From positions 186,001-250,000 of the forward strand of contig CALUIM010000012.1 in assembly GCA_944320725.1 (NCBI GenBank): 64,000 bases of DNA. Direction: 5' to 3'. Origin of the DNA: an uncultured Coriobacteriaceae bacterium (GTDB taxonomy: Bacteria; Actinomycetota; Coriobacteriia; Coriobacteriales; Coriobacteriaceae). How positions within the stretch are numbered: the stretch's first letter is position 1; each line of letters begins with the position of its first letter. Made by a program: the position numbers and the translations under genes. A model generated the notes under the pieces. That model searched no databases. It was not told the origin of the DNA and saw nothing but the letters and a program-made list of their open reading frames with translations. Below, in pieces: positions 15,057 through 39,368 of the stretch.

Positions 15057-15683
15057 TCACACACCGAGCCAGCGCTCCTCGACGGGTCTATCGTGGTCGT
15101 AGGTGTACTCGTCCCGCTCATCAATCTTTCGCATCACGCGGCACGGGTTGCCTACGGCAACCACACCGGCAGGTACGTCATGCGTGACCACGCTTCCTGC
15201 ACCCACCACCGAGCCCGGCCCCACCGTCACGCCCGGCAACACCACGCACCCGGCACCCAGCCACGCACCCGCGCAGATACGGACAGGCTTGTTGTACTGC
15301 AGAGCCTTGGCGAGCAGCCGGGGAGAGACGGGATGCGACGCCGTGCAGATGGTGACGTTGGGACCGATCATGACATCGTCTTCGATGAAGATATCCACAT
15401 CGTCCACCAGCGTGAGGCCCATGTTGGCGTAGACATTGTTACCCAGGTGCAGGTTGGCGCCGCCCCAGTTGGCGTAGAACGGCGGCTCGATCATGCAGCC
15501 CTCGCCCACCTCGGCGACGAGTTGGGAAAGAAGCTCGTCACGCTCCTCAGAGCTGCTGAACGGCAGCGCGTTGTAGGCATCCAGCACATCACGTCGGCGC
15601 GCTTGCTCAGCAAAGAGCTCCGGGCTGTTGCAAGCATAGAGCCGACCGTCGGCCATGCGCTGCCGCACTTCCGCAAGATCCAT
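15057..15683 (-). CDS. Sugar O-acetyltransferase, maltose/galactoside type (LacA/Maa/NodL)
   Basis: 208 residues. An N-terminal maltose-acetyltransferase cap (MDLAEVRQRMADGRLYACNSPEL) precedes a left-handed beta-helix of hexapeptide repeats (GPNVTICTASHPVSP, GAGCVVLPGVTVGPGSVVGAGSVV). The TASHPV histidine is the catalytic base of the family. It transfers acetyl from acetyl-CoA to a sugar hydroxyl. Monocistronic. Confidence 0.92.
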   Translation of the reverse strand: MDLAEVRQRMADGRLYACNSPELFAEQARRRDVLDAYNALPFSSSEERDELLSQLVAEVGEGCMIEPPFYANWGGANLHLGNNVYANMGLTLVDDVDIFIEDDVMIGPNVTICTASHPVSPRLLAKALQYNKPVRICAGAWLGAGCVVLPGVTVGPGSVVGAGSVVTHDVPAGVVAVGNPCRVMRKIDERDEYTYDHDRPVEERWLGV

Positions 15684-15809
15684 CTTGCCTCCGTTCTTCC
15701 TGCCAGGCAGACGAGCGCCCCGTCACTCGAAAACGACGGGACATCTAGATTATGAGACTTGAAGGAGTCATTGTATGCCCCTCAATCAATCAACGCAGGC
15801 TCTCTCGAC

Positions 15810-17111
15810 CTATCCCCACAGCCCCATGTTCGGCATCGCGTACAGCGGGACGTTCCTCATCCAGTCCTGCTCGCGGTAACCCGACAGGCTGAAGCGGACG
15901 GACCTGATCTCCGGATGGGCGGCCTTGAACGCTCTCAGGCTCTTTGCCCGCAGGTTCTCCTCCGCCTTCACCTCGATGGCGTAGACACCATTTGTGCGCT
16001 GCACGAGAAAGTCGATCTCACCCGACGAGTTCTCGGCAGACCAATAGTACGGCGCGAGCCCGCAGTCGGAGATGAGCTGCTGGCAGACGTACTGCTCGGT
16101 GAGAGAGCCCTTGAACTCTGTGAACGCCGCGTTGCCGTCGAGCACGGCAGTGGGGTCAAGACCCGCCATGGCACCGAGGAGGCCAACGTCGAGAAGAAGC
16201 ACCTTGAAGGACTTGTTGTCGTTGTATGCCGAAAGCGGAATTCCTGGCTTGGTTATGCGCGGAACCTTGTGGATGAGCCCCGCCTGAGCCAACCATGTGA
16301 GGGATTCCGCGTAATCCTTGGCACGGGCCCCCTCTCTGACCTGGCCGAACATAAACTTCTTGTTCTCCTTCGCAAGGTGCACGGGAATTGAGTTCCAAGC
16401 TTCGACCATCTTCGGATTGATTCGCAGGGGTGCGTGCTTGGCAAAATCTCGAAGATAGTCCTCGAGGATCTGGCTCTGCATGTCCCGAACCGAGCTGAAC
16501 GCTTCGCCCTCGATAAAGCCCGCGACAACCGCCGGCATCCCTCCCACTACGAAGTACCGGCGCAAAAGCGGAATGAGCTTCGAGGAAAATGCATTGATGC
16601 TCACCGTGTCCACCGAGTCCACGAGCTCTCGCAGCATGACGTTGCCCGTGGCATCGAGAAACTCGCGGAAACTCAACGGATAGAGATCGAGCGTGTTCAC
16701 TTTCCCAACGGGATACCCCGTGCCCTCGGTCGCAGACATCCCCAGAAGCGACCCCGCAGCAGCAACGGCGTATTCTGGCGCGTTCTCACAGAAGTATTTG
16801 AGGGAGGTTATAGCCTGTGGCGCCGCCTGTATCTCGTCAAGGATTATAAGCGTGGATGAGGGGCGGATTGCGACGCCAGTCAGGATGGACAGGTCGCGTA
16901 TGATGCGTGCTGGGTCGAGATCCTGCTCGAACAAGTCACGTGCAACCGAGCTTCCATCTAAGCTGACATACGCAACGGTGTCAAAATGCTCTCGTCCGAA
17001 CTCTTTGAGAAGCCACGTCTTGCCGACCTGTCGCGCCCCGTTGAGAATGAGCGGCTTGCGGCGGGGGGACTCCTTCCACCGGACAAGTTCGGACATCAGA
17101 TGCCTATCCAC
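15810..17111 (-). CDS. AAA_14/DUF4143 family ATPase
   Basis: 433 residues. Walker A is LNGARQVGKTWLLKEF (about residues 23-38) and Walker B LIILDEIQAAP. The C-terminal DUF4143 region ends with GEIDFLVQ...AIEVKAEE, a PD-(D/E)xK-like nuclease pattern. Such proteins are common accessory genes with unknown function. It ends the chromosomal side next to the island; its start is 90 bases outside the left attachment repeat. Confidence 0.85.
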   Translation of the reverse strand: MDRHLMSELVRWKESPRRKPLILNGARQVGKTWLLKEFGREHFDTVAYVSLDGSSVARDLFEQDLDPARIIRDLSILTGVAIRPSSTLIILDEIQAAPQAITSLKYFCENAPEYAVAAAGSLLGMSATEGTGYPVGKVNTLDLYPLSFREFLDATGNVMLRELVDSVDTVSINAFSSKLIPLLRRYFVVGGMPAVVAGFIEGEAFSSVRDMQSQILEDYLRDFAKHAPLRINPKMVEAWNSIPVHLAKENKKFMFGQVREGARAKDYAESLTWLAQAGLIHKVPRITKPGIPLSAYNDNKSFKVLLLDVGLLGAMAGLDPTAVLDGNAAFTEFKGSLTEQYVCQQLISDCGLAPYYWSAENSSGEIDFLVQRTNGVYAIEVKAEENLRAKSLRAFKAAHPEIRSVRFSLSGYREQDWMRNVPLYAMPNMGLWG

Positions 17112-17133
17112 GTGCGCTCCTCACAAAAATACA

Positions 17134-17167
17134 GCCTTATTCTTGTTCAGAATAACAGAAATAAGGC
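17134..17167. promoter_or_regulatory. Nested inverted repeats upstream of the AAA_14 gene
   Basis: TTATTCT (17137-17143) and AGAATAA (17149-17155) form a perfect palindrome with a 5-base centre. Outer arms GCCTTATT (17134-17141) and AATAAGGC (17160-17167) overlap it. They lie 23-56 bases upstream of the ATPase start and are a possible operator. Confidence 0.4.
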
Positions 17168-17200
17168 CGTAATAATGAGGTTATGAACGGAAATCAGGTG

Positions 17201-17223
17201 GAACTTTACTCCCACTCGGTAGT
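17201..17223. other. Left attachment site of the island
   Basis: This 23-bp stretch matches 39346-39368 at 19 of 23 positions, including the uninterrupted block TCCCACTCG. On the minus strand both copies read GAGTGGGA(A/G)TAA, the last codons of GuaA. It lies 155 bases beyond the integrase stop, as expected for an attachment site beside its integrase. Confidence 0.65.
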
Positions 17224-17258
17224 TACATTTGGGTAGGGAATTTTTTCGCACTCGCATT

Positions 17259-17332
17259 ACCGCAGGTCAGATGGGGTAAGAAAACGGCTCCTTTCTCGTC
17301 GGTGCCTCGGCTGCTACAAAACTGCTACAAAT
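17259..17332. promoter_or_regulatory. Putative integrase arm-type sites, left end
   Basis: ACCGCAGGTCAG (17259-17270) recurs as its exact reverse complement at 39291-39302. Two GCTACAAA units (17313-17320 and 17324-17331) are mirrored by GCCACAAA and GCTACAAA at the right end. Paired motifs just inside both element ends are typical of tyrosine-recombinase arm sites. Confidence 0.5.
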
Positions 17333-17378
17333 CGTCCCCGAACTTGTAGCGGGCGCCGAACCCCGCCACAAGCACCGG

Positions 17379-18569
17379 CTAGAAGACTGCCGACACGATA
17401 TCGACGGCCTGCCTCTTCGAGTCCATGTTCACGTGCGTGTAGATGTCCATGGAGATCTGGGAGCTGTAGTGCCCGGCGAGCTCCTGCATCACCTTGGGGT
17501 GCACGCCCTGGATGGCGAGCAGGGTGAGATAGGTGTGGCGGAACTCGTGCAGGCACCATCCGTCGAGGCCGTACTTTGCGCGGTCCTCGGTCCACCAGCG
17601 GCTGAGGCTGGTGGGCAGGATGCGGGTGCCGCAGTTGTCCGTGATGACGGGGCTGTCGTCGGTCTGCTCGATGTAGCCCTCCTCCGGCTTGCGCCATTGG
17701 TTGGTGCGGGCGTAGCACTTGAACTGGGCCTCCTTGTGATCCTTGAGGATCTGGACCGTCTTGTCCGAGAGCGGCAGCACGCGGGTGCCGGCCTTGGTCT
17801 TGGTTGCCTTGAGGTTGCCCCTGGCGTCGTAGGAATGCCGAATGCCGGCGACCTTGCGGTCGAAGTCTATGTCGCCCCAGGAGAGGCCGCAGATCTCGCC
17901 ACGGCGCAGGCCCATGGTGATGGCGAGCAGGTACGCGCACTCGCGGTCGGTCTCGGGGTTGAGCGCGTCGATGAACTTGTGCGCCTGGGCCGGCGTGAGG
18001 GCGCGCTTGGCCTTGGTGTCCATCTTGGGCGGGTTTGCCTTGTCGCACGGGTTGAACACGAGAATCCCCTCCTTCTTGGCCTGCTCGAAGACGAGCGTCA
18101 GGTTGTCGTGAATCTGGTTGACGTAGGAGCCGCCCGACGGCCCGCCGGAGAGCGTGTCGCCCTTGAGCATGGCTATGTACATGTCGTCGAGCATGGTAGG
18201 CGTGATCGATTCGAGCTTCGCCTTGCCGAGGTGCTTGGCCACGGCCTTGAACTGCTGGCGCTGCCTGTCGATGGTTGTAACCGCGACCTCCTTGTTGAGC
18301 TCGCGCCGGTCGACGTAGCGCTTGCAGTACTCCTCGAGCGTGTACGTGGTGCGGCCCTGGACGCGGTCGCCCTCCACCTCTTCCATGAACTCGCGCAGGG
18401 CCACCTTCGCCTGGGTGAACGTGCCAGCGAAGCGGCGAGACCTGGTCTTGTACTTGCCGGTCTTGGGATCCAAGCCGATCGAGACGCGCAGCTCCCACTT
18501 TCGGCACTTGTTCTTGGGCTTGTCCTTCTCCTTCTGGATGATGAAGCCTCCGCCTTTGGTGTCTGCCAT
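17379..18569 (-). CDS. int: Phage-type tyrosine integrase
   Basis: 396 residues: an N-terminal arm-binding region (KWELRVSIGLDPKTGKYKTR), a SAM-like core-binding domain (about 75-180) and a catalytic domain. Catalytic residues are Arg in MGLRRGEICGLSW, HEFRHTYL (His-x-x-Arg), GHYSS (His) and the tyrosine of MDIYTHVN. ATG 18569 with AGGTGAT is used rather than GTG 18578. It faces the left attachment repeat and would insert the island at the guaA 3' end. An HTH gene lies five bases upstream. Confidence 0.93.
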   Translation of the reverse strand: MADTKGGGFIIQKEKDKPKNKCRKWELRVSIGLDPKTGKYKTRSRRFAGTFTQAKVALREFMEEVEGDRVQGRTTYTLEEYCKRYVDRRELNKEVAVTTIDRQRQQFKAVAKHLGKAKLESITPTMLDDMYIAMLKGDTLSGGPSGGSYVNQIHDNLTLVFEQAKKEGILVFNPCDKANPPKMDTKAKRALTPAQAHKFIDALNPETDRECAYLLAITMGLRRGEICGLSWGDIDFDRKVAGIRHSYDARGNLKATKTKAGTRVLPLSDKTVQILKDHKEAQFKCYARTNQWRKPEEGYIEQTDDSPVITDNCGTRILPTSLSRWWTEDRAKYGLDGWCLHEFRHTYLTLLAIQGVHPKVMQELAGHYSSQISMDIYTHVNMDSKRQAVDIVSAVF

Positions 18570-18574
18570 ACAGA

Positions 18575-18958
18575 TCACCTGGCCTGCGTGGCCATGAGGC
18601 GGTCGCTGAAGTCGAGGAACAGCAGGAAGTCGTCGAGGCGCTTCTTGCCGTCTTCTGAGAGCGAGCGGTACAGGGCGTTGAGGTCCCGGCCGTTGGCGTC
18701 GTCTGCCGCGTCACGGCCGACGACCGCGTCTATGGTGCAGTTGAGCTTGTCAGCGATGGCCCAGGCGGCGCGCAGCGGCACGCCGGAGTCGGGGTCTGCA
18801 AGGGTGCGCTCGTAGCGCGAGTAGGTGGTGGCGGGGATGCCGAGCACCGCCGCGAAGTCCTTGCTGCTGCGGTATCCTGCGGCCCTGCGCAGGTCCGCAA
18901 GGGTGGTTTCGGGGCGCACATGGGCCTGTGCGCTGTCCATGCGGGTGCTTGATGCCAT
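18575..18958 (-). CDS. HTH regulator, paralogue of the 19047 repressor
   Basis: 127 residues with an XRE-like helix-turn-helix at about 20-75 (LADLRRAAGYRSSKDFAAVL, then TTYSRYE). It is clearly homologous to the N-terminal domain of the next gene: both contain SRY(E/D)K-type recognition helices and AWA(I/M)AD.L(N/D)C(T/S)ID..VGRD. The C-terminal half is unrelated and probably mediates oligomerisation. It lies five bases before the integrase, suggesting it controls or is co-expressed with it. The 17-bp element at 18969-18985 lies just upstream. Confidence 0.75.
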   Translation of the reverse strand: MASSTRMDSAQAHVRPETTLADLRRAAGYRSSKDFAAVLGIPATTYSRYERTLADPDSGVPLRAAWAIADKLNCTIDAVVGRDAADDANGRDLNALYRSLSEDGKKRLDDFLLFLDFSDRLMATQAR

Positions 18959-19046: not shown

Positions 19047-19829
19047 CTACTCGTCGAGCCGCACCGTCGCGTACTTGATGACCGTATCGGGAGTTGCCTC
19101 TCCCGAATGAACGGCCCAGTTCCTGAGCTCCTTGCGGTGCAGCCTGTCGTAGGCTTCCATGACCTTGCGTATCACCTCCTCGTCCTTCTTTCCGAATTCC
19201 TCGTCCATCTGTGCCCGTTCTTCGTCGAGCCAGTTCTGGATTTCCTCTTCCGTCCAGTAATGCACGTTGCCCTCGGAATCGCCGTAGCCGCCGCGCAGCT
19301 CTTCCTCAAGGCCGGCACAGTGGTCGTCGATGCCTGGCTTGCGTTTGGCGGCCGCTTGGTCGCGCAGGAACTTCTCGAATGCCGTCCGTTCCTCCATGGG
19401 CGAACCGAAGGCCACCAGGTCGCCGAAGTCTGACCCCTCATAGAGCGAGTTGTAGAAAACGCGCTCGTAGTATTGGCAGAGTCTGTCGTTCTTGGAGTCC
19501 TCCTCGGCCTTGGCCTGCCTACGTGCGGCCTTGTCCTTGACGCCGGCGAACTCGATGAACTCGTCGACCAGGGCGCGGGTCTCGGGCAGCAGGGCGTCGT
19601 AGAAGTCCTGCAGCTCGCTGACGCCGGCGGTGACGTGATCGCGGCCCACGATCTCGTCGATGGAGCAGTCGAGCGCGTCCGCCATGGCCCAGGCGACCTT
19701 GACGGGGATGGTCTCGGGGTCCTTGTCGTAGCGGGACATGCTCGAAGGCGAGATGCCCAACGCGTCGGCGAACTCGCGCGCGCTGCGGAAGCCCTTCTCC
19801 CTCCTGAGTTCCTGAATGGTCTTGGCCAT
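19047..19829 (-). CDS. XRE-family repressor-like protein of the island
   Basis: 260 residues. The HTH occupies about residues 1-65 (MAKTIQELRREKGFRSAREF..., LGISPSSMSRYDKD). The long, acidic, helical C-terminal part has no recognised peptidase or dimerisation motif, so it does not look like a CI repressor with self-cleavage. It is divergent from the early genes, with a good promoter and a split 9-bp inverted repeat in between, as for a lysogeny repressor. The HTH is paralogous to the adjacent 18575 gene. Confidence 0.75.
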   Translation of the reverse strand: MAKTIQELRREKGFRSAREFADALGISPSSMSRYDKDPETIPVKVAWAMADALDCSIDEIVGRDHVTAGVSELQDFYDALLPETRALVDEFIEFAGVKDKAARRQAKAEEDSKNDRLCQYYERVFYNSLYEGSDFGDLVAFGSPMEERTAFEKFLRDQAAAKRKPGIDDHCAGLEEELRGGYGDSEGNVHYWTEEEIQNWLDEERAQMDEEFGKKDEEVIRKVMEAYDRLHRKELRNWAVHSGEATPDTVIKYATVRLDE

Positions 19830-19903: not shown

Positions 19904-19985
19904 GTGCAACACATCATACCACTCCACAACAGAACTAACAATGTTACTAGGCAAATTATATCACGAATGAAAATTGGTGTTGCAC
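19904..19985. promoter_or_regulatory. Divergent control region with repressor promoter and operators
   Basis: On the minus strand TTGTTA (19936-19941) and TATGAT (19913-19918) are separated by 17 bases: a strong promoter for the repressor. GTGCAACAC (19904-19912) directly follows the -10, and its reverse complement GTGTTGCAC is at 19977-19985, on the early-gene side. The AT-rich stretch at 19954-19962 may hold the rightward -10. This looks like a genetic switch with two operators. Confidence 0.65.
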
Positions 19986-20083
19986 GTAGAGGGATTTTCT
20001 GTGCTACCCTATGGCACGCGCCCACAACAGAGGCAAACGGTGTTCCACAGAGCGCACCGGAACTGGCGCGGGCGTGACGGACA

Positions 20084-20100
20084 TGAGGCTAGAAAGGACG
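20084..20100 (+). repeat. 17-bp regulatory element, copy 2
   Basis: TGAGGCTAGAAAGGACG, identical to copy 1 at 18969-18985 in the opposite orientation, 18 bases before the start codon of the excisionase-like gene. Its function is unknown; it may be bound by one of the two paralogous HTH regulators. Confidence 0.6.
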
Positions 20101-20117
20101 ATCTTAGGAGGTTCCAC

Positions 20118-20327
20118 ATGGGAAACAAGTTCGAGGAACTGCCACTGTTCCTGACGCCGCAGCAGCTTGCGGACGTCACCGGCGAGCACTTCAACTCGAT
20201 CCGGCGCGGCATCACCGAGGGGCGGATCCCCGCAGACAAGGCGAACGGGCGCTGGCGCATCTGCCGCGACGTCATCTTCGCGAACACGAAGGAGGGCCTT
20301 CTCTTCGGCAAGAAGGTCGGGGAATGA
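20118..20327 (+). CDS. Excisionase/AlpA-like DNA-binding protein
   Basis: 69 residues forming a winged-helix of the HTH_17 excisionase type: LPLFLTPQQLADVTGEHFNSIRRGITEGRIPADKANGRWRI has the recognition helix and the wing. AGGAGG lies seven bases before ATG 20118. It is the first rightward gene after the switch region and may bend DNA for excision or activate early genes. The next gene overlaps by 4 bp. Confidence 0.75.
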   Translation: MGNKFEELPLFLTPQQLADVTGEHFNSIRRGITEGRIPADKANGRWRICRDVIFANTKEGLLFGKKVGE

Positions 20328-20559: not shown

Positions 20560-20694
20560 ATGGGGCGACCCACAGCCGAAATCTTGGCGGATGGCGGGCT
20601 GCGGGTCACCGGTGCTCAGAGCTTTGCGCTCTGTCCGAGCGATTCTACACCTTGCGGCAACTTCCACAAGCGGAGGGAGGTGCCGGCATGGTGA
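20560..20694 (+). CDS. Possible small phage protein, 44 residues
   Basis: An open frame from ATG 20560 fills the gap between the Cro-like gene and the primase and overlaps the primase start (TGGTGA contains both ends). GAGGG lies nine bases upstream of the start. The product (MGRPTAEILADGGLRVTGAQ...) shows no recognised family. Called on position, coupling and compactness only. Confidence 0.35.
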   Translation: MGRPTAEILADGGLRVTGAQSFALCPSDSTPCGNFHKRREVPAW

Positions 20695-21776
20695 CCGAGA
20701 CAGACCGCGACGCGCTGCGCGAGCTCATGCCCGAGCTCTTGAACGTTCGTTGCGGGATCACCGACCTGCGCCGGTCCTTCCGGTGCCCATCGCCCAACCA
20801 CGACGACCGCGACCCCTCCGCGCACTACTACGCCAACGACAACACCGTGCACTGCTTCGGGTGCGGCAAGACCTGGGACGTGTTCTCGCTGATCGCCGAG
20901 CTCGACGGCATCGACGGCTTCGCCGAGCAGGCCAGGGCCGTGGCGGATGCCGCGGGATACAGGCTCAGCGACGATGACGAGCCGAGGAGGCCGAGGCAGC
21001 GGCCAAAGCGCAAGCCCAGGCCGCTGTTCGACCCTCCCCGCGAGGCCGGCGGCGCCGACTGCGCCGAGGCGTGCGGAAACGCCTTCGGGCAGCTCTACTG
21101 CGCCGAGAACGACATCGGCCGGCGCTACCTGCGCCGGCGCGGGCTCGACGACGGCGACGCGGCCACCTTCGGGCTCGGCTTCACCAAGGATCCGCGCGAG
21201 ATCATGCCGGAGTTCCGCGTGTACGAGCCCAAGGCTTTCGGCTTCATCACGATCCCGTTCTGGAACAGGGACTTCTCGACGGCGAACTACTGCATGGTGC
21301 ACACCGTCTGCAAGCCCGGCGGCGCGCGCAACAAGGAGTGGCGGCCACGCGGTCTGGCGACGCCCCTGTGGTGCGAATGGCTACTCTCGGCCGCTGCCGA
21401 CCAGGTCTACGTGACCGAGGGGCTGATCGACGCGATGGCCCTGGCGAAGATCACCGGCGGCGACACGATGGCCCTGGGCGGCGTGTCGAACGCCAAGCGC
21501 CTGGCGCAGGTGCCCTACGCGACGCCTCCCGAGCTTAGGCCCAAGAAGATTACCGCGGCCATGGACGAGGATGACGAGGGGCGCAGGACCCGCGACAGGA
21601 TCTGCCACGACCTCGACGTGCTCAGGGTGCCGCATGCCGTGATGCCGCCCTATCCGGGCGGGGCCAAGGACGCGGACGAGTACCTCATGGCCATGCACGG
21701 CAAGGAGTGGGACTACGAGCGGCGCGAGCCGAGCATCCAGACCGGTTACAAGCTGTGGTACACGAGGTGGCGCTGA
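20688..21776 (+). CDS. CHC2 zinc-finger DNA primase
   Basis: 362 residues. The zinc ribbon appears as FRCPSPNHDDRDPSAHYY...HCFGCGKTWDVF (about residues 31-70). A TOPRIM-like region (VYVTEGLIDAMALAKI, then AMDEDDEG and DADEYL) follows in the C-terminal half. It would synthesise RNA primers for island replication. There is no helicase domain; the next gene, starting in the TGATG overlap, supplies a RecA-fold ATPase. Confidence 0.85.
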   Translation: MVTETDRDALRELMPELLNVRCGITDLRRSFRCPSPNHDDRDPSAHYYANDNTVHCFGCGKTWDVFSLIAELDGIDGFAEQARAVADAAGYRLSDDDEPRRPRQRPKRKPRPLFDPPREAGGADCAEACGNAFGQLYCAENDIGRRYLRRRGLDDGDAATFGLGFTKDPREIMPEFRVYEPKAFGFITIPFWNRDFSTANYCMVHTVCKPGGARNKEWRPRGLATPLWCEWLLSAAADQVYVTEGLIDAMALAKITGGDTMALGGVSNAKRLAQVPYATPPELRPKKITAAMDEDDEGRRTRDRICHDLDVLRVPHAVMPPYPGGAKDADEYLMAMHGKEWDYERREPSIQTGYKLWYTRWR

Positions 21777-23023
21777 TGGGCGTGAGCAAGGAAGCATACA
21801 TGCACGACGTGGAGGCCGCGAACGACGCGGCCTCCGTCGTCTCCGAGGATATTGCGGCAACAAAGGGCTTTGCATCGGCCCTGCCGCCCTTCCAGCAGGC
21901 GATTGTGCTCCGCGACGAGCTGCCCGAGATGCCGGCGGAGGTGATCGAGGGCGTGCTGTTGGAGACGCACAAGATGCTGCTGACCGGACCCTCCAAGGCG
22001 GGCAAGACGTGGTGCCTGATCAACCTGGCCGTGAGCGTGGCGACCGGCGGCTGGTGGATCGACTTCAAGTGCGCACAGCGCAAGGTGCTCTACGTGGACC
22101 TTGAGACCGACCCGAGGACGCTGCAGAAGCGCGTGTCCCGCGTGGCCGAGGCCAAGAGCGCCGACGCCCAGGCGGTGCGCGGGAACCTGGTACTCTGGCC
22201 CCTGCGCGGCAAGTCCTGCTCGCTTGAGGAGATCGCCGCCGAGCTCTTCGTGCGCTGCAAGGCGGGCGACTTCGGCATGGTCATCATCGACCCGGCCTAC
22301 ATGGTGCAGGACGGCGACGAGAACAACGCCAAGGACATCCGCGAGTTCTTCGCCAAGCTCGACGAGATCTGCGTGAACCTTGAGTGCACCGTCGTGATCT
22401 CGCACCATCACAGCAAGGGCGCACAGGGCCTGAAGAGCGCGATCGACCGTGGCAGCGGCTCCGGCGTGTTCGGCCGTGCCCCCGACGCGGTGCTCGACAT
22501 GACCGAGCTGATCCTGGAGCCCGGCACGCTGGAGATGGCGCGGCAGTCGCACAAGCTGGCCGACGTGAAGCGGCTCACCGGCTGGCGGATGTCGTTCACC
22601 CTGCGCGAGTTCGCCCAGAAGGACCCGCTCGACCTGTGGCTGGTCTTCCCGCTGCACGAGGTTGACCACACCGACCTTTTGGCCGACTGCAAGCCAAACT
22701 ACGGCGGCGTGTCCGAGGCCAGGAAGCTGCGCACCGAGGCCGAGAACCTTGGCAAGGTGGCCTCCCTTGAGGGCGTGTGCGACCGGCTCATCGGGCGCGG
22801 CGAGAGCTGCGAGCGCGACGAGCTGCGCAGGTCCCTGGGATGGAGCCTGCCCACCGTGCGCCGATGGCTCGACGAGTCCACCCGATTCGAGCAGACGCTC
22901 GACCCGAAGACCGGCAAGGCGCTGATCGTTCGCGCGGCTGTGAATGATGCGGCAACTTCTGGCTCTTCCGGCGAGGCCCCGGACAGCGGAGAGGAGGCGC
23001 AAGGTGTCCTTCCCATTGCCTGA
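21776..23023 (+). CDS. RepA/AAA_25-type RecA-fold ATPase (replicative helicase-like)
   Basis: 415 residues. Walker A is LTGPSKAGKTWCLINLA; VLYVDLETDP and MVIIDPAYMVQDGD form the Walker B region; VVISHHHSKGAQG is the sensor/hexamer loop of the RSF1010 RepA/DnaB-like group. The C-terminal 100 residues look like a winged helix. It overlaps the primase stop by one base. It probably unwinds DNA at the island origin. Confidence 0.8.
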   Translation: MGVSKEAYMHDVEAANDAASVVSEDIAATKGFASALPPFQQAIVLRDELPEMPAEVIEGVLLETHKMLLTGPSKAGKTWCLINLAVSVATGGWWIDFKCAQRKVLYVDLETDPRTLQKRVSRVAEAKSADAQAVRGNLVLWPLRGKSCSLEEIAAELFVRCKAGDFGMVIIDPAYMVQDGDENNAKDIREFFAKLDEICVNLECTVVISHHHSKGAQGLKSAIDRGSGSGVFGRAPDAVLDMTELILEPGTLEMARQSHKLADVKRLTGWRMSFTLREFAQKDPLDLWLVFPLHEVDHTDLLADCKPNYGGVSEARKLRTEAENLGKVASLEGVCDRLIGRGESCERDELRRSLGWSLPTVRRWLDESTRFEQTLDPKTGKALIVRAAVNDAATSGSSGEAPDSGEEAQGVLPIA

Positions 23024-23204
23024 AAGGGTGCAAATTTGCATGTTTAAGGGGGGGTAAAGAAACCCTTATATATAGAAATATTTGTGGGGAGGGGGATGTG
23101 TGTCGGGGACAGGACGCCCCGACCACACACCCCCGCACCCTTCCCGTGAGGCCTGAGGGGGTCAAAGGCTTTCACCCGACCCTTCATCCCGGGCGGTGGC
23201 CGGC
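23024..23204. other. AT-rich intergenic stretch with palindrome
   Basis: TGCAAATTTGCA (23029-23040) is a 12-bp perfect palindrome, followed by an AT-rich run (23050-23085) in otherwise GC-rich DNA, directly after the replication genes. It could be an origin or a promoter. No repeated iterons were seen. Confidence 0.35.
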
Positions 23205-23693: not shown

Positions 23694-23945
23694 TTAGCCA
23701 AGATAATCGCGAATTGCATCAATGATTTCGGGATGCCAAGCGTCTGCGTCAAAGACCCTGTCTCTGTAAATCGTGTACTTCACGCCCTCGTGGGTCACAA
23801 GCCAATGATTTCCCGAGTGCTCTTGGATACCCATCTCTTCGAGTATTAGGTTTAAGGCATGAACGCTCTTAACATCGTAGCCAAGTTCCTGCAAGCGGCT
23901 GACTATCTCGGACTTGTATAAGTCGCCTAAGTAGTTGTACGGCAT
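23694..23945 (-). CDS. Small hypothetical cargo protein, reverse strand
   Basis: 82 residues, unrecognised (MPYNYLGDLYKSEIVSRLQE; HWLVTHEGVKYTIYRDRVFD). ATG 23945 has GGGAGG eight bases before it. Base composition is more AT-rich than the neighbours, and the opposite orientation inside a rightward phage operon marks it as accessory (moron-like) cargo. Confidence 0.6.
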   Translation of the reverse strand: MPYNYLGDLYKSEIVSRLQELGYDVKSVHALNLILEEMGIQEHSGNHWLVTHEGVKYTIYRDRVFDADAWHPEIIDAIRDYLG

Positions 23946-24018
23946 TGCGACACCTCCCATTAGCGTATTCAATGCTTGCCAGCATAGTAAAACACATCAA
24001 TCAGGCCGACCCTGTGAG

Positions 24019-24058
24019 TTTGTGACGCGCTGGGAGCATGCCACCTTGAGGAGGTGGC
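24019..24058 (+). promoter_or_regulatory. Late-module motif copy 1 with hairpin over the terS ribosome site
   Basis: TTTGTGACGCGCTG (24019-24032) is identical to 36691-36704. ATGCC follows after five bases. GCCACCT (24040-24046) and AGGTGGC (24052-24058) form a 7-bp stem that contains the terS Shine-Dalgarno sequence. Confidence 0.55.
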
Positions 24059-24063
24059 TGACC

Positions 24064-24498
24064 ATGCCCGCGAAGTTGAAGCTGACATACGCGCTCGTCG
24101 AGCAGATCGTGGAGCTCAAGCGCGACGGACTGTGCGATGCAGACATCATCGCCGCGATCGGCGTGCACCAGGCGACGTTCTACCGCTGGCTGAAAGAAGG
24201 CGAGAACGCCAAGACCGGAGTGAAGCGCGCGTTATACGAAGAACTAAAAAAGGCCGAGGCGCAGTACAAGAGATGCCTGCTCACGACCATCAAGTCGGCG
24301 GCGGAGTCTCGCGCCCAGTACTGGACGGCGGCCGCCTGGCTGCTTGAGCGCAAGTACCCCATGGAGTACGGCAAGATGGAGCGCAAGGCCGAGGAGGCAG
24401 ACAACGCTCCGGTGCAGCTGACACTCGGGCTCGTCATCGAGCCCATGGCCGACGACTCCGACGGCGAGGCCGGGGGCGGTGTTGCCGATGGCGACTAA
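24064..24498 (+). CDS. terS: Terminase small subunit-like protein
   Basis: 144 residues. The N-terminal HTH (LVEQIVELKRDGLCDADIIA, then QATFYRWLKEGENAKTG) is the DNA-recognition region of phage small terminases. A helical oligomerisation stretch follows, ending in an acidic tail. It would recognise the packaging site. GAGGAGG precedes ATG 24064. Its last 11 bases overlap terL. Confidence 0.82.
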   Translation: MPAKLKLTYALVEQIVELKRDGLCDADIIAAIGVHQATFYRWLKEGENAKTGVKRALYEELKKAEAQYKRCLLTTIKSAAESRAQYWTAAAWLLERKYPMEYGKMERKAEEADNAPVQLTLGLVIEPMADDSDGEAGGGVADGD

Positions 24499-25768
24499 CG
24501 TCTCCGACTTCGTCATCCCGCGCTTCCACCCGGTGCTCGGCGACGTGATGGCCCACGGCCACACGCACTACTGGCTGCCGAGCGGGCGCAGCTCGACCAA
24601 GTCCTCCTTCATCAGCATCGCGATCGTTCTTCTCATCATCGCGAACCCGAAGGCCAATGCCGTGGTGGTAAGGCGCTTCTCCAACACCCTGCGCGATTCC
24701 GTCTACCAGCAGATCCAGTGGGCAATCGAGATGCTCGGCCTGGAGGGCGTCTTCCGCTGCCGCGTCTCTCCCATGGAGATCACCTACACCCCTACCGGGC
24801 AGCGCATCGTGTTCCGTGGTGCGGACGATCCTCTCAAGTTGAAGGGCGTGAAGTTCACCAAGGGCTATTGCAGCGTGGTCTGTTTCGAGGAGCTGGACCA
24901 GTTTGAGGGTGTGGAAGCCGTTCGCTCCATCCTCAACTCTCTGCGCCGTGGCGGTGACCGCTTCTGGATCTTCTATTCCTACAACCCGCCTAAGACGATG
25001 TGGTCGTGGGTGAACGTGGAGCGCCTGGAGCGCATTCGGTGCGACGACACCCTTGTGCGCGGGAGCTCTTATCTCGACGTGATCGATTCCCACCCTGACT
25101 GGCTGGGCGCGCCGTTCGTGGAGGAGGCCGAGTACCTGCACGACACGAACGAGAAGGCCTGGCGTTGGGAGTACCTGGGCGAGATAACCGGCACCGGCGG
25201 CGCGATCTTCGACAACGTGCACGAGGCGAAGCTTTCCGACTCTCGCATCCGCACCTTCCAGCGCATCCGAAACGGCGTTGACTGGGGCTGGTTCCCGGAC
25301 CCGTGGCGCTTCGTGCGCTGTGCCTGGGAGCCTGATGCGCGGCGCCTTCTCATCTTCGAGGAGCATTCGGCCAACAAGATGATGCCGGCGGAGACCGGGC
25401 GCATAGTGGTCGATTCTCTCACCTTCCCAGACGAGGTGGGCGGCGAGCCCTACTTCCACGACCAGATCATCTACTGCGACGACACGCCCGACTCCAAGGT
25501 GCAGATGAACGTGTGGAGGCGCGAGCTCGGCCTTCGCGTTCACGCGGCCAGGAAGGCCAGGATGCGCCGGCTTTCCTACGAATGGCTGGATGGGCTGCGC
25601 GAGATCGTGATTGACAGCGAGCGATGTCCCTTGACCTTCTCCGAATTCACCTTGAAGGAGTTCGAGAGGGACAAGGAGGGCAACTGGATAGACGAGATCC
25701 CGGATGGCAATGACCACAGCATCGACGCGGTGAGATACGCGATGCTCGACGACGTATTGCGAGGTTAG
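24488..25768 (+). CDS. terL: Terminase large subunit
   Basis: 426 residues. The packaging ATPase has a Walker A-like SGRSSTKSSF (about residues 33-42) and Walker B CFEELDQFEG. The C-terminal RNase H-like nuclease has GVDWGWFPDP (first Asp), IIYCDDTPDSK and a final DHSIDAVRYAM Asp. Length is typical. It cuts and pumps DNA into the prohead. Intact. Confidence 0.93.
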   Translation: MATNVSDFVIPRFHPVLGDVMAHGHTHYWLPSGRSSTKSSFISIAIVLLIIANPKANAVVVRRFSNTLRDSVYQQIQWAIEMLGLEGVFRCRVSPMEITYTPTGQRIVFRGADDPLKLKGVKFTKGYCSVVCFEELDQFEGVEAVRSILNSLRRGGDRFWIFYSYNPPKTMWSWVNVERLERIRCDDTLVRGSSYLDVIDSHPDWLGAPFVEEAEYLHDTNEKAWRWEYLGEITGTGGAIFDNVHEAKLSDSRIRTFQRIRNGVDWGWFPDPWRFVRCAWEPDARRLLIFEEHSANKMMPAETGRIVVDSLTFPDEVGGEPYFHDQIIYCDDTPDSKVQMNVWRRELGLRVHAARKARMRRLSYEWLDGLREIVIDSERCPLTFSEFTLKEFERDKEGNWIDEIPDGNDHSIDAVRYAMLDDVLRG

Positions 25769-26847: not shown

Positions 26848-28662
26848 ATGCAGGCCAAGGAATACCCCTTCAGCAGGATTAAGCGGCAGGTCATCTACAA
26901 GATTCCCTTCTTCCAGAGAACCTACGTTTGGCAGCTCGGAAACTGGGAGGATCTTTGGAAGGAGCTTTCCTCGCCCAAGAGGAGCTGCTTCCTTGGATCT
27001 ATCATCCTGAAGGACGTCGAGGACCCGCTCAGGGAGCGCATGTATCAGCAAGTCGTAGACGGGCAGCAGCGCTTGACCACGCTTACAATTCTTCTGCGGG
27101 CGCTTATCGACCATTTCGGGGACAAGGCCACCGAGGAAGAGTACGAGGAGTATCTCTACTTTGTCCGAACAAAGCTCACGTCTGGCGGCCGCGTAAAGGA
27201 GCGTAGCTACAAGATCGAGCATTCGAAGGTCGATGCCCCGTTCTACAAGGACATCATCGACGGCAAATATGCCGGCATCGAATTGGGAGACGAGGTTGTC
27301 CCAGAAAACAGGCTCGTCTACTGCTACAAGTTCTTCCGCGAGATGTTCGCGATGGCAACTGATGAAGAGCTTCAAAGCGTAACCGAGAAGCTGACATACG
27401 ACGACCGTGAGGTGCTCGTGTTCATCGAGCTCCGCGAGGACGAAAACGAGCAGGTCATCTTCGATGCCATCAACAGCACGGGCGTGAAGCTGACCACTTC
27501 TGACATTATCAAGAACGAACTCTTCCAGCGAGTGATCGACACCAACAAGGGAGGCTCCGGCGAGGCTCGGGCAAAGGACCACGCTGGCGCGCTGTACGAT
27601 GAAACTTGGTTCGAGACATTCGAGCGCGATTCCGACACGCTCAACACCTGGCTTGACACCGTGGGTGTCGGCCATAACGTCCGAAGCAATATTGACCTCT
27701 TCTTTAGCGCATTCGCGCAGATAAAGCAGATATTCAACCCTGCCAAGGATAAGGTTGCAGAACTGGCTCCTTGCTACTCGAGGCATGTCTCCGGGATGGA
27801 TGCCGCCGAGATCGAGGCCTTCATTCGCGAGATCTGCGATTACGCCGAGACCTACCGCGAGACGTTCATCGGATTTGACGAGATTACGGCCTTCAGCTTC
27901 GAGGACAGCACAACGCGCCTGTTGAAGATGCTGAAGGTCATGCGACTCGCAACATTCGACGCCTTCATCCTGAAGACAATGAAGACGCTGCCGGAGGATG
28001 AGCAGGCGGCTGTTTTTAACCTGCTCGAACGCTACCTGATGCGCAATTACGTCATCGGCAACTCAACGCGCAACTACAACACCCAGGCCTACGAGATGAT
28101 CGAGGGCAAGTTCGACTTCGAGGAAGCCCTTTCCAAGCCCGAGGTAGCAGACGACCGCCTTCTTGCCTCGCTTCGAAACATCTACAGCACGCGTGCTGGG
28201 CTCGTACTTTTCTGGATCGAACTGCACAGGCACATGGACCCCGAATCTGACCTGCATGGAGCAGAGTTGAAGTACTCATTTGAGCTGGAGCACATCATGC
28301 CGCAGAAGTGGCGCCAGCATTGGGGCTTAGACGTGCTTCCCTGCATTGACGAGCACGGCGTCGAGCTTTCCGGGAACGACGCTGAGAACGCGCGCACTGC
28401 CGCCGTCTACGAAATCGGCAACATGACTCTTCTACCTTCGCGCCTGAACAAAGACCTGAAGAACTATGCTTTCGCCGATAAGGTGAACGGATGCCAGCTG
28501 CGCAAGCGGTGGCAAAAGGGCATGAAAGACCAGACCGCATTCATGATCACCAAAGAAGTGACGGACCGCGACCCGCTTGTTTGGCGCGAAGCTGACATCA
28601 GGGCTCGGACGCAAGCGCTCTTCAAAGAGTTCTGCGAGATCTGGCCCTCTAGCTCGAAATAG
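26848..28662 (+). CDS. DUF262/DUF1524 protein, GmrSD-like modification-dependent nuclease
   Basis: 604 residues. The N-terminal ParB-like DUF262 domain is shown by PFFQRTYVWQLGNWEDLW, FLGSIILK, VVDGQQRLTTLTILL and IFDAINSTGVKLTTSDIIKNEL. The C-terminal DUF1524 HNH domain is shown by ELEHIMPQKW and IGNMTLLPSRLNKDL. This is the single-chain layout of GmrSD type IV enzymes, which use NTPs to cut modified phage DNA. GGAGG precedes the ATG. It sits between terL and portal with its own promoter, so it can act as lysogenic defence cargo. Confidence 0.85.
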   Translation: MQAKEYPFSRIKRQVIYKIPFFQRTYVWQLGNWEDLWKELSSPKRSCFLGSIILKDVEDPLRERMYQQVVDGQQRLTTLTILLRALIDHFGDKATEEEYEEYLYFVRTKLTSGGRVKERSYKIEHSKVDAPFYKDIIDGKYAGIELGDEVVPENRLVYCYKFFREMFAMATDEELQSVTEKLTYDDREVLVFIELREDENEQVIFDAINSTGVKLTTSDIIKNELFQRVIDTNKGGSGEARAKDHAGALYDETWFETFERDSDTLNTWLDTVGVGHNVRSNIDLFFSAFAQIKQIFNPAKDKVAELAPCYSRHVSGMDAAEIEAFIREICDYAETYRETFIGFDEITAFSFEDSTTRLLKMLKVMRLATFDAFILKTMKTLPEDEQAAVFNLLERYLMRNYVIGNSTRNYNTQAYEMIEGKFDFEEALSKPEVADDRLLASLRNIYSTRAGLVLFWIELHRHMDPESDLHGAELKYSFELEHIMPQKWRQHWGLDVLPCIDEHGVELSGNDAENARTAAVYEIGNMTLLPSRLNKDLKNYAFADKVNGCQLRKRWQKGMKDQTAFMITKEVTDRDPLVWREADIRARTQALFKEFCEIWPSSSK

Positions 28663-28707: not shown

Positions 28708-28750
28708 AAACTTCACCATGCCTTTCGGTGTGGTTGAAGGAGGTTTCAGC

Positions 28751-30388
28751 ATGGGCGCTAATGGCTTGGACGAATACTGGGTGCCGGAGCATGTTAAGGA
28801 CTACCTGAGGAAGCTCGGATTCGTTCTTCCCATGGATGACATGGAACCCTGGATACGGTCGTGGGATGACTGGATGAGCGCACGCGGGGAGTTCTACGAC
28901 TACCGGGATAAGGACGGCATAGGCAGAGTTTATGCTGTTCATCGTCGGTCTATTCATCCTGCTATGCGTGTATGCAAGGAGTGGGGCTCTCTTCTTCTCA
29001 ATGAAGAGGTCAAGGTCGTGTGCGAGGATCAGAGGGCGACCGACTGGATCAACTCGTTCTTCTCTTCCACCAACTTCATGAATGCGGCGCAGGCGACCGT
29101 CGTGCGTGCCTTCGGCCTGGGCACGGGCGCTTGGGCACTCTGGATTGACCTGGGCAAGAGGAAGGTTCGCATCCGGCATTACGACGCGCGCATGGTCATC
29201 CCACTCTCATGGGACGAGGACGGGATCTCGGAGTGCGCTTTCGCCACGCGGGCGTTCTATAGGGGCAAGGCCGTGGACCAGCTGCAGATGCACCTGCGCG
29301 GTAGTATGGGCTTCTCGGCGGACCTTTCCCCATCTTCACCTTCCCACGAGAACGAGGGTGCTCTTCTCTCCCATGAAACAGAGGAGACGTACAGGATCGT
29401 CACCGTGTGCTTCGACCACGAGGGAAACGAGCTCGCGCCTGCGGGCATCCTCCCGATCTACGACACGGGCTGTCCTTTCCCCACCTTCGGCATTGTCAAA
29501 CCTGCAATCACCAATACCAGGGTGGATATGAGTCCCTACGGACAGTCGGTATTCGCTGATGCGGTGGACGCCGTCCAGGCCGTGGACCTCACCTTCGATG
29601 CCCTTATCAACGAGATCGACCTCTCGAAGATGAGGGTGTTCTTGTCGGACGTCCTTTTTGACAGAGAGCAGGACGGCAACAAGAACGTCACCATTCCCTT
29701 CGGCAAGCAGGACTGCACTGTCTTCCGCAAGGTCATGAGCACGGAGGACACGATCCAGGAGTTCGCGCCGGCGCTGCGCACCAATGGGCAAATCGAGGCG
29801 TTCCGCGTGGCCCTGCAGATGCTTGGAGATCTCACAGGCTTCGGCATCAGCTACTTCGACATGAACGAGTCCCGGGGGTATGTGAAGACGGCCACCGAGG
29901 TCTCTTCCGACAACTCGGCGCTCATGCGCAACATCCGCCGGAACGAGAATAGCCTGGAGGGCTCGATCGTCTCGATAGCGAAAGCAGTCATGCACGCGTC
30001 GCGATCCTTCGGCGAGGGCATCCCTGACGAGGGCGAGGTCCGCGTGCAGTTCGACGACTCCATCATCCAGGACACGGCAGCGGAGAAGGAGCAGGACATG
30101 CGCGAGGTGGGCGTCACCATGGGCGCCTGGGAGTACAGGATGCGCTGGTATGGGGAGGAAGAGTCCATCGCACGCGCCAGGGCGGCAGAGATCGGCACGG
30201 GCAAGGGTATGAATTTACCTCGATTCCGTTTACACCCCTACGCCGCATTCAGGGCGGCGCCCTCCCGACCGCCGGCGGCCTCTCGGAGAGGTCGGGTTCC
30301 CTCAGGCACTTCCTCACCGTGGGCTCGGAGACCCCGGTGTCCCGGGCTATCGAGGCGACCGTCGCCCCGTTCCTGCCCAGCTTTCTGA
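28751..30388 (+). CDS. Phage portal protein (SPP1 gp6-like), C terminus altered by IS21 remnant
   Basis: Portal-like sequence runs from ATG 28751 (GAAGGAGG before it) to about 30208, some 486 residues, close to a full SPP1-type portal: an N-terminal wing, a long core (VDAVQAVDLTFDALINEID) and a stem/clip region with TATEVSSDNSALMRNIRRNE. Codons after about 30208 come from IS21-like DNA and add about 60 proline/arginine-rich residues before the stop. Only a few native residues may be lost, so activity is uncertain. The portal would form the DNA entry ring. Confidence 0.8.
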   Translation: MGANGLDEYWVPEHVKDYLRKLGFVLPMDDMEPWIRSWDDWMSARGEFYDYRDKDGIGRVYAVHRRSIHPAMRVCKEWGSLLLNEEVKVVCEDQRATDWINSFFSSTNFMNAAQATVVRAFGLGTGAWALWIDLGKRKVRIRHYDARMVIPLSWDEDGISECAFATRAFYRGKAVDQLQMHLRGSMGFSADLSPSSPSHENEGALLSHETEETYRIVTVCFDHEGNELAPAGILPIYDTGCPFPTFGIVKPAITNTRVDMSPYGQSVFADAVDAVQAVDLTFDALINEIDLSKMRVFLSDVLFDREQDGNKNVTIPFGKQDCTVFRKVMSTEDTIQEFAPALRTNGQIEAFRVALQMLGDLTGFGISYFDMNESRGYVKTATEVSSDNSALMRNIRRNENSLEGSIVSIAKAVMHASRSFGEGIPDEGEVRVQFDDSIIQDTAAEKEQDMREVGVTMGAWEYRMRWYGEEESIARARAAEIGTGKGMNLPRFRLHPYAAFRAAPSRPPAASRRGRVPSGTSSPWARRPRCPGLSRRPSPRSCPAF

Positions 30389-30991: not shown

Positions 30992-31582
30992 ATGGGTTCG
31001 CCATACGACGGTCATTCTGTGCGCGAATGGGACCGCATAACCCAACAGTTGATTGATGAGCACCCATTGGAAGAGGAAGAGATTGTTGAAGTCGTGCTGG
31101 AAGCTTGGGAAAGCATTATGCAGACCAAAATCGGCGGCAAGCTTCAAATCGGGGTTGATGTGCTTCCTAGTCCACAAATCCTGGGCAACTATCTTCACAT
31201 GCTAACCGCTGCGATTTTTGCAGAAAGATACCCTGGCATTTGGAGAGGTGAAATCGACAAAAGCGATAAGGACGTGGTCTATATTAATGACGATTACTAC
31301 TCGTTTGAAATCAAGACCTCATCGCAGAACAGCATCTACGGGAACAGGAGCTATGGTCAGCCAAATAGCGACAACAGTTCTGGTAAAGCAAAGTTTGGCT
31401 ATTACCTAGCTATTAATTTCGAGAAATTCACGCAAACGCATCGCCATCCTGTAATAAAGCGCATTAAGTTCGGATGGATAGATCACTCTGACTGGCATGC
31501 GCAAGCAGCAGCGACTGGCCAAAACTCAACTCTTGATAGGGATGCATGGAATCATAAGTTGAAGCTTCTTTACGGAAGCTGA
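30992..31582 (+). CDS. ScaI-like type II restriction endonuclease
   Basis: 196 residues. YSFEIKTSSQNSIYGNRSYGQ is the pattern I recall for the ScaI endonuclease family, with EIK as the metal-binding acidic/lysine part of a PD-(D/E)xK site and Asp of KDVVYIND as partner. ScaI cuts AGTACT; whether specificity is shared is unknown. GAGGAGG precedes the ATG. It converges on a DNA methyltransferase gene across a terminator, a normal R-M arrangement. Confidence 0.75.
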   Translation: MGSPYDGHSVREWDRITQQLIDEHPLEEEEIVEVVLEAWESIMQTKIGGKLQIGVDVLPSPQILGNYLHMLTAAIFAERYPGIWRGEIDKSDKDVVYINDDYYSFEIKTSSQNSIYGNRSYGQPNSDNSSGKAKFGYYLAINFEKFTQTHRHPVIKRIKFGWIDHSDWHAQAAATGQNSTLDRDAWNHKLKLLYGS

Positions 31583-33833: not shown

Positions 33834-33980
33834 TGCGGTACCCCTTCTAATCAAATGAACGATCTACGTGTTGGCTACACTCATCAAGAACGTGTGCAGC
33901 CGGACACGGAAGATTCATTCTTCCAGCCACCATAACGCTTCGGAGAATCGCACCGATGATTTGCGGTCCTTATCGATAAA

Positions 33981-36653: not shown

Positions 36654-36690
36654 TGCCGCAACTTCCAAAGCAGCCGACAACAAATGCGAC

Positions 36691-36735
36691 TTTGTGACGC
36701 GCTGCGACGATGCCCGTACCGGTAAAGGTGCGGGC
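36691..36735 (+). promoter_or_regulatory. Late-module motif copy 3 with hairpin before scaffold-capsid gene
   Basis: TTTGTGACGCGCTG (36691-36704) is identical to copy 1; ATGCC follows after five bases. GCCCGTACC (36712-36720) pairs with GGTGCGGGC (36727-36735), with one G-U pair. Confidence 0.55.
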
Positions 36736-36781
36736 ATTGTTCGTCTCTGCCCGCCTTACGAGACGAAAGGCAGGACAGAAC

Positions 36782-38211: not shown

Positions 38212-38529
38212 GTGGCCTCTTCCGTGACATACGAGTTCTACCAGGACACCTACGGGAGCGGCCTTTCCGAGGCCGCCTTCGCGGCGTCTCTGCCCATGGC
38301 GGACAGCCACGTGAAGTGGCTCTGCGCGGTGAAGGGCACGGATACCGACTCCGAGACTTTCATGCGCGCCGTATGCGCGGCGCTGGAGGCGTTCGCCGAG
38401 TACGGCGTGGGCGAGGTCGGCGGCTACACGATCGGCGAGTTCAGCGTGAAGAACTACGCGAGTCAGCGGACGACCGGCGAGGAGCTGGCGACGGCAGCCG
38501 TGAATCTGAATCTGCCCCATTCCCGTTGA
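38212..38529 (+). CDS. Head-tail connector-like protein, C terminus clipped by IS3
   Basis: 105 residues, GTG start two bases after the capsid stop. The early EFYQDTYGS and the helical MRAVCAALEAFAEYG segment resemble small head-completion/connector proteins that follow capsid genes. The last four residues come from the IS3 end, so the native C terminus is probably missing. Expected downstream stopper and tail genes are absent. Confidence 0.6.
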   Translation: MASSVTYEFYQDTYGSGLSEAAFAASLPMADSHVKWLCAVKGTDTDSETFMRAVCAALEAFAEYGVGEVGGYTIGEFSVKNYASQRTTGEELATAAVNLNLPHSR

Positions 38530-38581
38530 CACACGGACTTCCGTTTCGGCATGATGCCGTAAACGGGGAAAGGAGGCGGGG

Positions 38582-38869
38582 ACGGGGAAACCGTCACCGA
38601 AGTACACCGCGGAACTCAAGCAGCGGGCGGTGAGGCTGTACGGGGAGAGGGGCGGCACCTGCGCGGAGACCGCCCGTGAGCTCGGGGTCGACCCGGGGAG
38701 CCCGCCGGGCTGGGTCAAGAGGGCGGATGCCGCGCAGGCGCCGCCCGAGGGCAACCCGTTCCGGATGGCGGAGGACCTCAGGCGCCTCAGGCGCGAGAAC
38801 GAGCGGCTCAAGAGGGGGAACGGGATGCTTTTGAAAGCGGGCGCCTTCTTCGCCGGCAGGCAGCTGTAG
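38582..38869 (+). pseudogene. IS3 OrfA with ACG at the start position
   Basis: 95 codons: KPSPKYTAELKQRAVRLYGE, then the HTH and a leucine-zipper region (RLRRENERLKRGN). AAGGAGG is placed for a start at 38582, but the codon is ACG rather than ATG; the first available GTG is 38630, inside the HTH. Initiation is probably lost. Confidence 0.65.
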
Positions 38870-39155: not shown

Positions 39156-39204
39156 CTTTTTATCTCCTTTCATGTTCCCAGGACCGCTGTGGGTGCTCCT
39201 GGGG

Positions 39205-39345: not shown

Positions 39346-39368
39346 GAATTTTATTCCCACTCGATTGT
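39346..39368. other. Right attachment site, spanning the guaA stop codon
   Basis: It matches the left copy at 19 of 23 positions and covers the last codons and stop of guaA. The right copy keeps the gene intact, as usual for elements that insert at the 3' end of a housekeeping gene. Confidence 0.65.

Follow-up and report, generated by a model that had tools for sequence, protein, structure and literature searches.

The 3′ end of guaA is a described address for mobile DNA. The E. coli phage vB_EcoP_ZX5 is reported as a temperate phage at guaA (PMC9782041), GIsul2 with CR2-sul2 occupies guaA in an arrangement of three att cores in which the island's integrase excises and integrates the sub-unit (PMC9376610), and the guaA 3′ end stands among the IME targets in the table of PMC5704250. 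The original prediction that guaA 3′ ends are known sites for genomic islands is thus borne out by phages, islands and IMEs as these sources describe them. CIMEs, in the account of PMC5704250, have lost their integration genes and kept their att ends, and a later element enters the att site beside the target gene. The ssrA islands of Dehalococcoides are presented as a tandem array at a gene 3′ end, 15 of them without an integration module (PMC3146451). Our search of the open-licence full-text literature found no paper that describes, for Coriobacteriia, prophages at guaA or cassettes of this kind.

We analysed a 64-kb stretch of coriobacterial DNA (the window) and conclude that positions 17206-39362 are very probably a defective temperate phage in a short guaA gene (guaA-short), stacked on the remnant of an older cassette and later reduced by an IS-associated deletion. 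The locus resembles vB_EcoP_ZX5 as a temperate phage at guaA; as that phage is described, its host is unrelated (PMC9782041), whereas here a coriobacterial standalone paralogue serves as target for an element that is both defective and stacked. Three att cores at guaA are shared with GIsul2, which is described as a genomic island, not a phage, mostly in proteobacteria; CR2-sul2 lies inside GIsul2, whereas the mini-elements reported below are separate and carry attP-like arms of the prophage family (PMC9376610). Integrase-less, att-bounded units and stacking also recall CIMEs and tandem accretion. CIMEs are described for ICEs and IMEs (PMC5704250), whereas at this site a prophage takes the part of the autonomous element and the mini-elements retain hardly anything beyond the arms. 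Tandem islands at the 3′ end of one gene, some without an integration module, are likewise found in Dehalococcoides, which differ in their serine recombinase, ssrA target and rdhA cargo as reported (PMC3146451). The system described here departs from known CIME and accretion biology in having a phage as partner, att ends that are close to minimal and cargo rich in toxin-antitoxin genes.

The att structure of the element comprises the following sites.
17206-17217, + strand: attL core, a copy of the guaA 3′ end (core search)
39351-39362, + strand: attR core, formed by the stop codon and last codons of guaA-short (core search)
17259-17270, + strand: left inverted arm motif ACCGCAGGTCAG, 41 bp from the core (motif search, relatives)
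39291-39302, − strand: right inverted arm motif, the reverse complement of ACCGCAGGTCAG, 48 bp from the core (motif search)
17311-17331, + strand: left arm pair, CTGCTACAAA twice at a spacing of 11 (window and relatives)
39207-39225, + strand: right arm pair GCCACAAA/GCTACAAA at a spacing of 11 (window and relatives)

The left 23-bp repeat had been predicted to resemble the guaA 3′ end, and it does: 17201-17223 and 39346-39368 are identical at 19/23 positions, the next-best ungapped match to the left copy on both strands of the 64-kb window reaching 15/23. The core within it, TTAYTCCCACTC, occurs in the 64 kb only at 17206 and 39351, even at one mismatch; two matches compare with a shuffle mean of 0.18, and two were reached in 0/100 shuffles. 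At attL the fourth core base reads C, which is also found in many cassette right ends, whereas attR has T; directly after the G the sequences diverge again. The mirrored ACCGCAGGTCAG motif lies just inside both ends as claimed. The repeat pairs proposed for both ends hold exactly on the left, where GCTACAAA occurs at 17313 and 17324 (spacing 11), and on the right only if one mismatch is allowed, a single exact copy at 39218 being preceded 11 bp earlier, at 39207, by the near-copy GCCACAAA. Counts of GCTACAAA and ACCGCAGGTCAG in the window were rejected as proof of arms because they are too weak, two copies of ACCGCAGGTCAG at one mismatch being reached in 8/100 window shuffles; the arm motifs owe their credibility to conservation in relatives and not to how rarely chance would produce them here. 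The window contains no tRNA or tmRNA gene, and the element can indeed be defined without a tRNA target, as its boundaries and arms hold up when empty sites, cousins and contigs with attP are compared.

Left ends of relatives retain the order and spacing of core, inverted motif and tandem pair, the letters of the pair varying (GCTACAAA, GCCACAAA, GGAAGAAT, GGTACGAA). The left-end pattern search matched 27/392 genomes at 29 loci, of which 17 passed the core test; the other loci were excluded, even L273 with its integrase and real-looking end. Together with three variant ends these make 20 left ends, six of them without an integrase match (G262, G347, G257, G341, G297:C157 and G327). G327 is cut by a contig end, and the integrases of G179, G275 and G300 are partial or decayed. 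The right-end search matched 56/396 genomes, and 20 regions were read. Left and right arm pairs agree in 8/10 elements with both ends (window, L193, L196, L199, G053, G341, G297 and G257). Matched arms are no strict rule, because the arms of G142 disagree (GGTACGAA left, GCYACAAA right) and the G262 mini-element is without a right arm pair. Permutation of the arm-pair agreement over 9/10 elements, leaving out G262 for its missing right pair, gave 0.0005, and 0.0024 without two near-identical mini-elements, values that are optimistic because the sequences are related.

Two IMG/VR records, L195 and L196, have right arm, core and left arm joined, which is the junction predicted for attP. The far end of L195 lies in the endolysin region and the record is not circularly closed; both records could be tandem lysogens rather than circles. 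L193 and L199 were rejected as attP, being integrated proviruses. Similar right-core-left junctions in G195, G168, G262 and G313 were read as tandem insertions. The left ends of a sister integrase group (51-55% identity; L123, L124, L125 and L127) carry the same GCAGGTCAG motif and GGTACGAATC pairs, and by eye they lie beside an XRE-type helix-turn-helix-looking coding sequence, not guaA.

The flanks of the site are defined by two genes.
39351-40337, − strand: guaA-short, standalone GMP-synthetase domain of 328 aa, the target gene (PF00958; guaA_Cterm equivalog domain)
15057-15683, − strand: maltose-acetyltransferase-like gene (maa) of the host flank (Pfam Mac/Hexapep)

Prediction of guaA as target holds for the 3′-end site, not for the gene, which is a standalone paralogue rather than full-length guaA. 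It contains the C-terminal part of GMP synthetase and lacks the glutaminase half; full-length guaA lies on another contig of the same genome (G000:C2). Six of the nine genomes of the genus have guaA-short at 94-100% identity and a seventh has a partial copy. At 73-94% identity it is found among at least 80 records listed, from many bacterial groups; the nearest named relatives among the matches listed are Olsenella sp. An290, a Collinsella MAG and Enorma phocaeensis, which suggests a coriobacterial host. Judged from these sequences, the spread suggests either wide horizontal transfer or mis-binned contigs. Records with relatives at 73-80% identity are labelled Clostridia, Bacteroidales, Prevotella, Spirochaetaceae and others (L019-L098).

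Empty sites confirm the insertion. In Olsenella An290 (L019) guaA-short is followed by the maa-like gene after 42 bp, and in G004 (L099/L005) after ~330 bp. As the two genes are directly joined in these empty relatives, ~23.6 kb stands between them in the window. Comparison with island-free genomes thus supports site-specific insertion as anticipated, except that guaA joins the gene at 15.06-15.68 kb and not the 17.2-kb sequence. Island-free relatives with neither flank joined had been named as the outcome that would speak against the element; half of that outcome is seen, because 15757-17205 is what a second element left behind at this site. A window-type left end adjoins maa directly in G008, with no ATPase between them and with an integrase 73% identical to that of the window. 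The right end was not found in G008, where guaA-short on contig C26 is not followed by phage arms. In G220 (L177+L178) and in G138 (L181), one region holds maa together with both forms of guaA, and a core-bounded segment separates guaA-short from the full-length gene.

The sequence left of attL is not host DNA but belongs to another guaA cassette, and the site is one of tandem accretion.
15757-17205, no strand: what remains of the right end of an older guaA cassette without an integrase (cassettes in G007, G042, G054 and others are homologous up to the core)
15810-17111, − strand: AAA_14/DUF4143 ATPase of the cassette (Pfam AAA_14 and DUF4143; PADLOC PDC-S01, E=2.9e-172; 94% aa identity to the G054 copy)
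17130-17171, no strand: palindrome GGCCTTATT...AATAAGGCC in the cassette right end (18-nt arms 83% complementary; strongly conserved in relatives)

Host sequence homologous to G008 ends at 15740, and 16 bp (15741-15756) precede the start of cassette homology. A query spanning the left junction finds different partners on either side of the core: its left side matches ~80 bp plus the ATPase abutting full-length guaA or other elements, and its right side, 17206-17299, matches phage-type left ends elsewhere. Positions 17128-17205 with the core correspond to cassette right ends, accompanied by the ATPase, that abut full-length guaA in seven genomes (G276, G274, G009, G229, G220, G063 and G138). 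Only the right 1.45 kb is present in the window; the left core and the left ~1.6 kb of a G042-type cassette are missing, and the remnant is absent from G008 and from the empty sites. Measured against a CIME, the unit has no integrase and retains its right end, and falls short in its missing left core. The palindrome before the DUF4143 ATPase is likely to be an operator.

Were the ATPase unit an ordinary, vertically inherited neighbour of guaA rather than a mobile cassette, its position in the same orientation right behind full-length guaA in the seven genomes would fit. Its right end is sporadic, however, occurring in 12/396 genomes besides the window's own, over three families; its far-side neighbours differ, the copies in G063 (4.5 kb) and G138 (3.1 kb) have guaA cores on both sides, and others lie beside other sequences (G042, G053:C1 and G054). 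We therefore consider vertical inheritance unlikely. No integrase-like ORF was found among the ORFs of the core-bounded units in G063 and G138; those of the G063 cassette, named by eye, include nitroreductase-like and EamA-like ones and others. Contig G004:C15 has, away from guaA-short, an ATPase fragment (90% aa) beside a 93%-identical terL, so that cassette and phage are neighbours elsewhere too. This repeated adjacency would suit a true left end at ~15.75 kb, with the ATPase part of the phage element and the 17206 core internal, but such an extension is very improbable given that no core lies near 15.75 kb, that phage left ends occur without the ATPase in G008 and in IMG/VR relatives, and that the ATPase unit has its own right end at guaA without the phage in several genomes.

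To the right of this cassette remnant, the 22-kb element 17206-39362 is a prophage. An integrase lies beside attL with a matching attR, and between the cores there are also two regulators, one of them repressor-like, a primase, a replication ATPase, both terminase subunits, a portal, a major head protein and a head-tail adaptor.
17379-18578, − strand: tyrosine integrase (Phage_integrase E=1.7e-20; phrog_1 E=8.5e-67; Arm-DNA-bind_4 weak, below the Pfam cut-off)
18575-18958, − strand: XRE-type regulator (Pfam HTH_3)
19047-19829, − strand: putative CI-like repressor (Pfam HTH_3)
19974-20327, + strand: small HTH_17-like protein, possibly an excisionase (HTH_17 E=1.1e-4, below cut-off)
20652-21776, + strand: DNA primase (Pfam and PHROG profiles)
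21707-23023, + strand: AAA_25 replication ATPase/helicase (Pfam and PHROG profiles)
23935-24498, + strand: terminase small subunit (phrog_4102)
24479-25768, + strand: terminase large subunit (Terminase_3; phrog_3717)
26848-28662, + strand: GmrSD-like restriction enzyme, cargo (Pfam, PADLOC)
28718-30388, + strand: portal protein (phrog_533)
30992-31582, + strand: ScaI-type restriction endonuclease, cargo (PF09569 E=1.4e-74)
31644-33854, − strand: DNA methyltransferase, cargo (domain profiles, PADLOC; 99.7% aa identical in G142)
33981-36737, − strand: AAA_13-type ATPase, cargo (PADLOC PDC-S06; 99.2% aa identical in G142)
36710-38209, + strand: scaffold-like part and major head protein in one ORF (phrog_422 over residues 210-498)
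38212-38529, + strand: head-tail adaptor, 3′ end lost (phrog_541; G142 homology ends at 38498)
38973-39212, − strand: small right-end ORF, truncated, conserved in the phage family (relatives; no Pfam match)

The longer ORF 17314-18714 was rejected as the integrase frame as it has no Pfam match, and the opposite-strand ORFs 20616-21302, 21746-23041 and 24434-25717, likewise without matches, were rejected as genes, the phage genes being on the other strand. No relaxase or conjugation gene, as would mark a guaA-targeting ICE or IME, was found among the subset of window ORFs given to Pfam. Defence-type cargo lies at two places, the GmrSD-like enzyme between terminase and portal, and the ScaI-type endonuclease, methyltransferase and AAA ATPase between portal and capsid. 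Methyltransferase and AAA ATPase (31644-36737; L244 4-5094) have 99% protein identity with G142, a genome of another family, which points to recent transfer. Cousins of the prophage comprise eight IMG/VR loci and elements of other genomes, lying either at full-length guaA, as in G142, or at guaA-short, as in G053 (32 kb). The scaffold-like and major head parts form one open frame in the window; 6/6 matching virus records show internal stops or split matches.

Comparison with G142 also reveals a deletion.
38499-39012, no strand: deletion scar in which ~0.5 kb replaces ~10.3 kb of G142-type tail/lysis genes (comparison with G142)
38630-38869, + strand: transposase fragment within the scar (HTH_Tnp_1 E=8.2e-6)

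Identity between the two is 97.2% over 6.4 kb and 84% in the adaptor region, followed by a 10.3-kb gap and then 94.6% to the end. The G142 segment missing from the window encodes adaptor, Dit, Tal, fibre and endolysin proteins. An IS-like remnant thus stands in place of ~10 kb of tail and lysis genes and the prophage is defective; because this loss left a visible scar, we class the element as a defective member of the prophages. Capsid-forming PICIs are defined by a natural absence of tail and lysis genes across the family. That the element is such a phage satellite (cf-PICI-like), with its own heads, borrowed tails and a normal lack of tail genes, would accord with its integrase, repressor, primase, terminase, portal and capsid and with the finding of no tail or lysis genes between its att sites, but is highly improbable, because the very position of the 0.5-kb scar is occupied by Dit, Tal, fibre and endolysin genes in the near relative G142, the scar holds a transposase fragment with truncated genes on both its sides, and G053, read by eye, has comparable ORFs there. 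We therefore rejected this class, tail and lysis genes being present in a relative and scarred away in the window. Neither a tape-measure nor a major tail protein was identified in the ten ORFs scanned in the G142 tail part (L244 7030-16891). L247 (G224:C1; 1860-2733 and 9335-10197) and L272 (G195) contain short remnants of deleted prophages in which the 3′ end of the integrase and the small right-end ORF survive; those of G224 are arranged as an inverted pair.

How the defective prophage came to lie on the cassette remnant can be proposed from these junctions. The phage's own tyrosine integrase (17379-18578) would have inserted it into the last codons of guaA-short, with strand exchange inside TCCCACTCG and the last guaA codons restored by the phage copy. 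Binding of arm pairs and core is the standard scheme for tyrosine recombinases, and here the N-terminal domain would bind the arm pairs and the catalytic domain the core. For the inverted CCGCAGGTCAG motifs, which lie ~45 bp from the core, the probable ligand is either an accessory factor or the integrase itself. We infer that the cassette entered first and was truncated, and that the phage then entered the core between cassette and guaA, as in tandem accretion; this order is favoured because the window keeps only the right 1.45 kb of the cassette and the G008 phage end adjoins maa without the ATPase. A later IS-associated deletion would have removed the tail and lysis genes.

Mini-elements of 1.7-2.7 kb in four other genomes have preserved the left ~132 bp of such prophages; three of them have preserved the right arm region as well.
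L241 3268-5520: mini-element of G341:C47, 2.25 kb (guaA cores and prophage att arms)
L242 3812-6472: mini-element of G297:C157, 2.66 kb (guaA cores and prophage att arms)
L290 2440-4277: mini-element of G262:C78, 1.84 kb (guaA cores and prophage att arms)
L291 6258-7998: mini-element of G257:C7, 1.74 kb (guaA cores and prophage att arms)

In the first two, the ends are those of the window element, over 134 bp at 78% on the left and over 166 bp on the right (97% in G341 and 87% in G297), and beyond both ends no further match to the window element was found. Left ends of G257 and G262 are of the G142/G337/G179/L195 type, with homology that stops after 128-131 bp; at the right end, homology begins with the arm pair in G257 (141 bp) and is confined to the last 80 bp in G262. 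All four resemble CIMEs in having att ends on both sides, G262 without the right arm pair, and no integrase inside. Toxin-antitoxin-type genes are present in 4/4, Pfam identifying YafQ and RelB in G297 and G257, YafQ in G341, and RelB, ParE and Phd in G262; other cargo includes TrmO (G257), a glycosyltransferase (G297 and G341) and a MazE-like protein (G297).

Outer flanks differ among the G341, G297 and G327 copies and between the G257 and G347 copies, which argues that mini-elements have moved; any present mobility we infer. No integrase at least 60% identical to the window's was found in G341, G297, G257, G262, G327 or G347; at E<=1e-30 none exceeds 31% identity in G297, G257, G262, G327 or G347, and the best in G341 reaches 56%, which speaks against a live system. 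The mini-elements may be dead copies or may await a helper. Given such tiny cassettes in related genomes, with little beyond attachment ends, mobile genes seem to share this site as a common point of entry. Our analysis leads us to a tentative, possible extension: the guaA 3′ end in Coriobacteriia might be an integron-like platform, with prophage integrases as the recombinase, at which integrase-less cassettes of little more than attP arms (~132 bp left, ~165 bp right) and toxin-antitoxin, defence or metabolic cargo would be inserted, stacked and spread by phages, in trans or by co-excision and co-packaging with a neighbouring prophage. The comparison suggests that prophages, not ICEs alone, can serve as helpers for att-bounded gene cassettes in gut Actinobacteria. 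It also makes a minimal recombination site readable from nature, since the mini-elements cease to match full prophages after the left arm pair and resume at the right arm pair. Finally, a further core-bounded segment of 3.0 kb (L241 5520-8537) lies beside the G341 mini-element, forming an array, and its content includes alpha/beta hydrolase-like genes and a TetR regulator.
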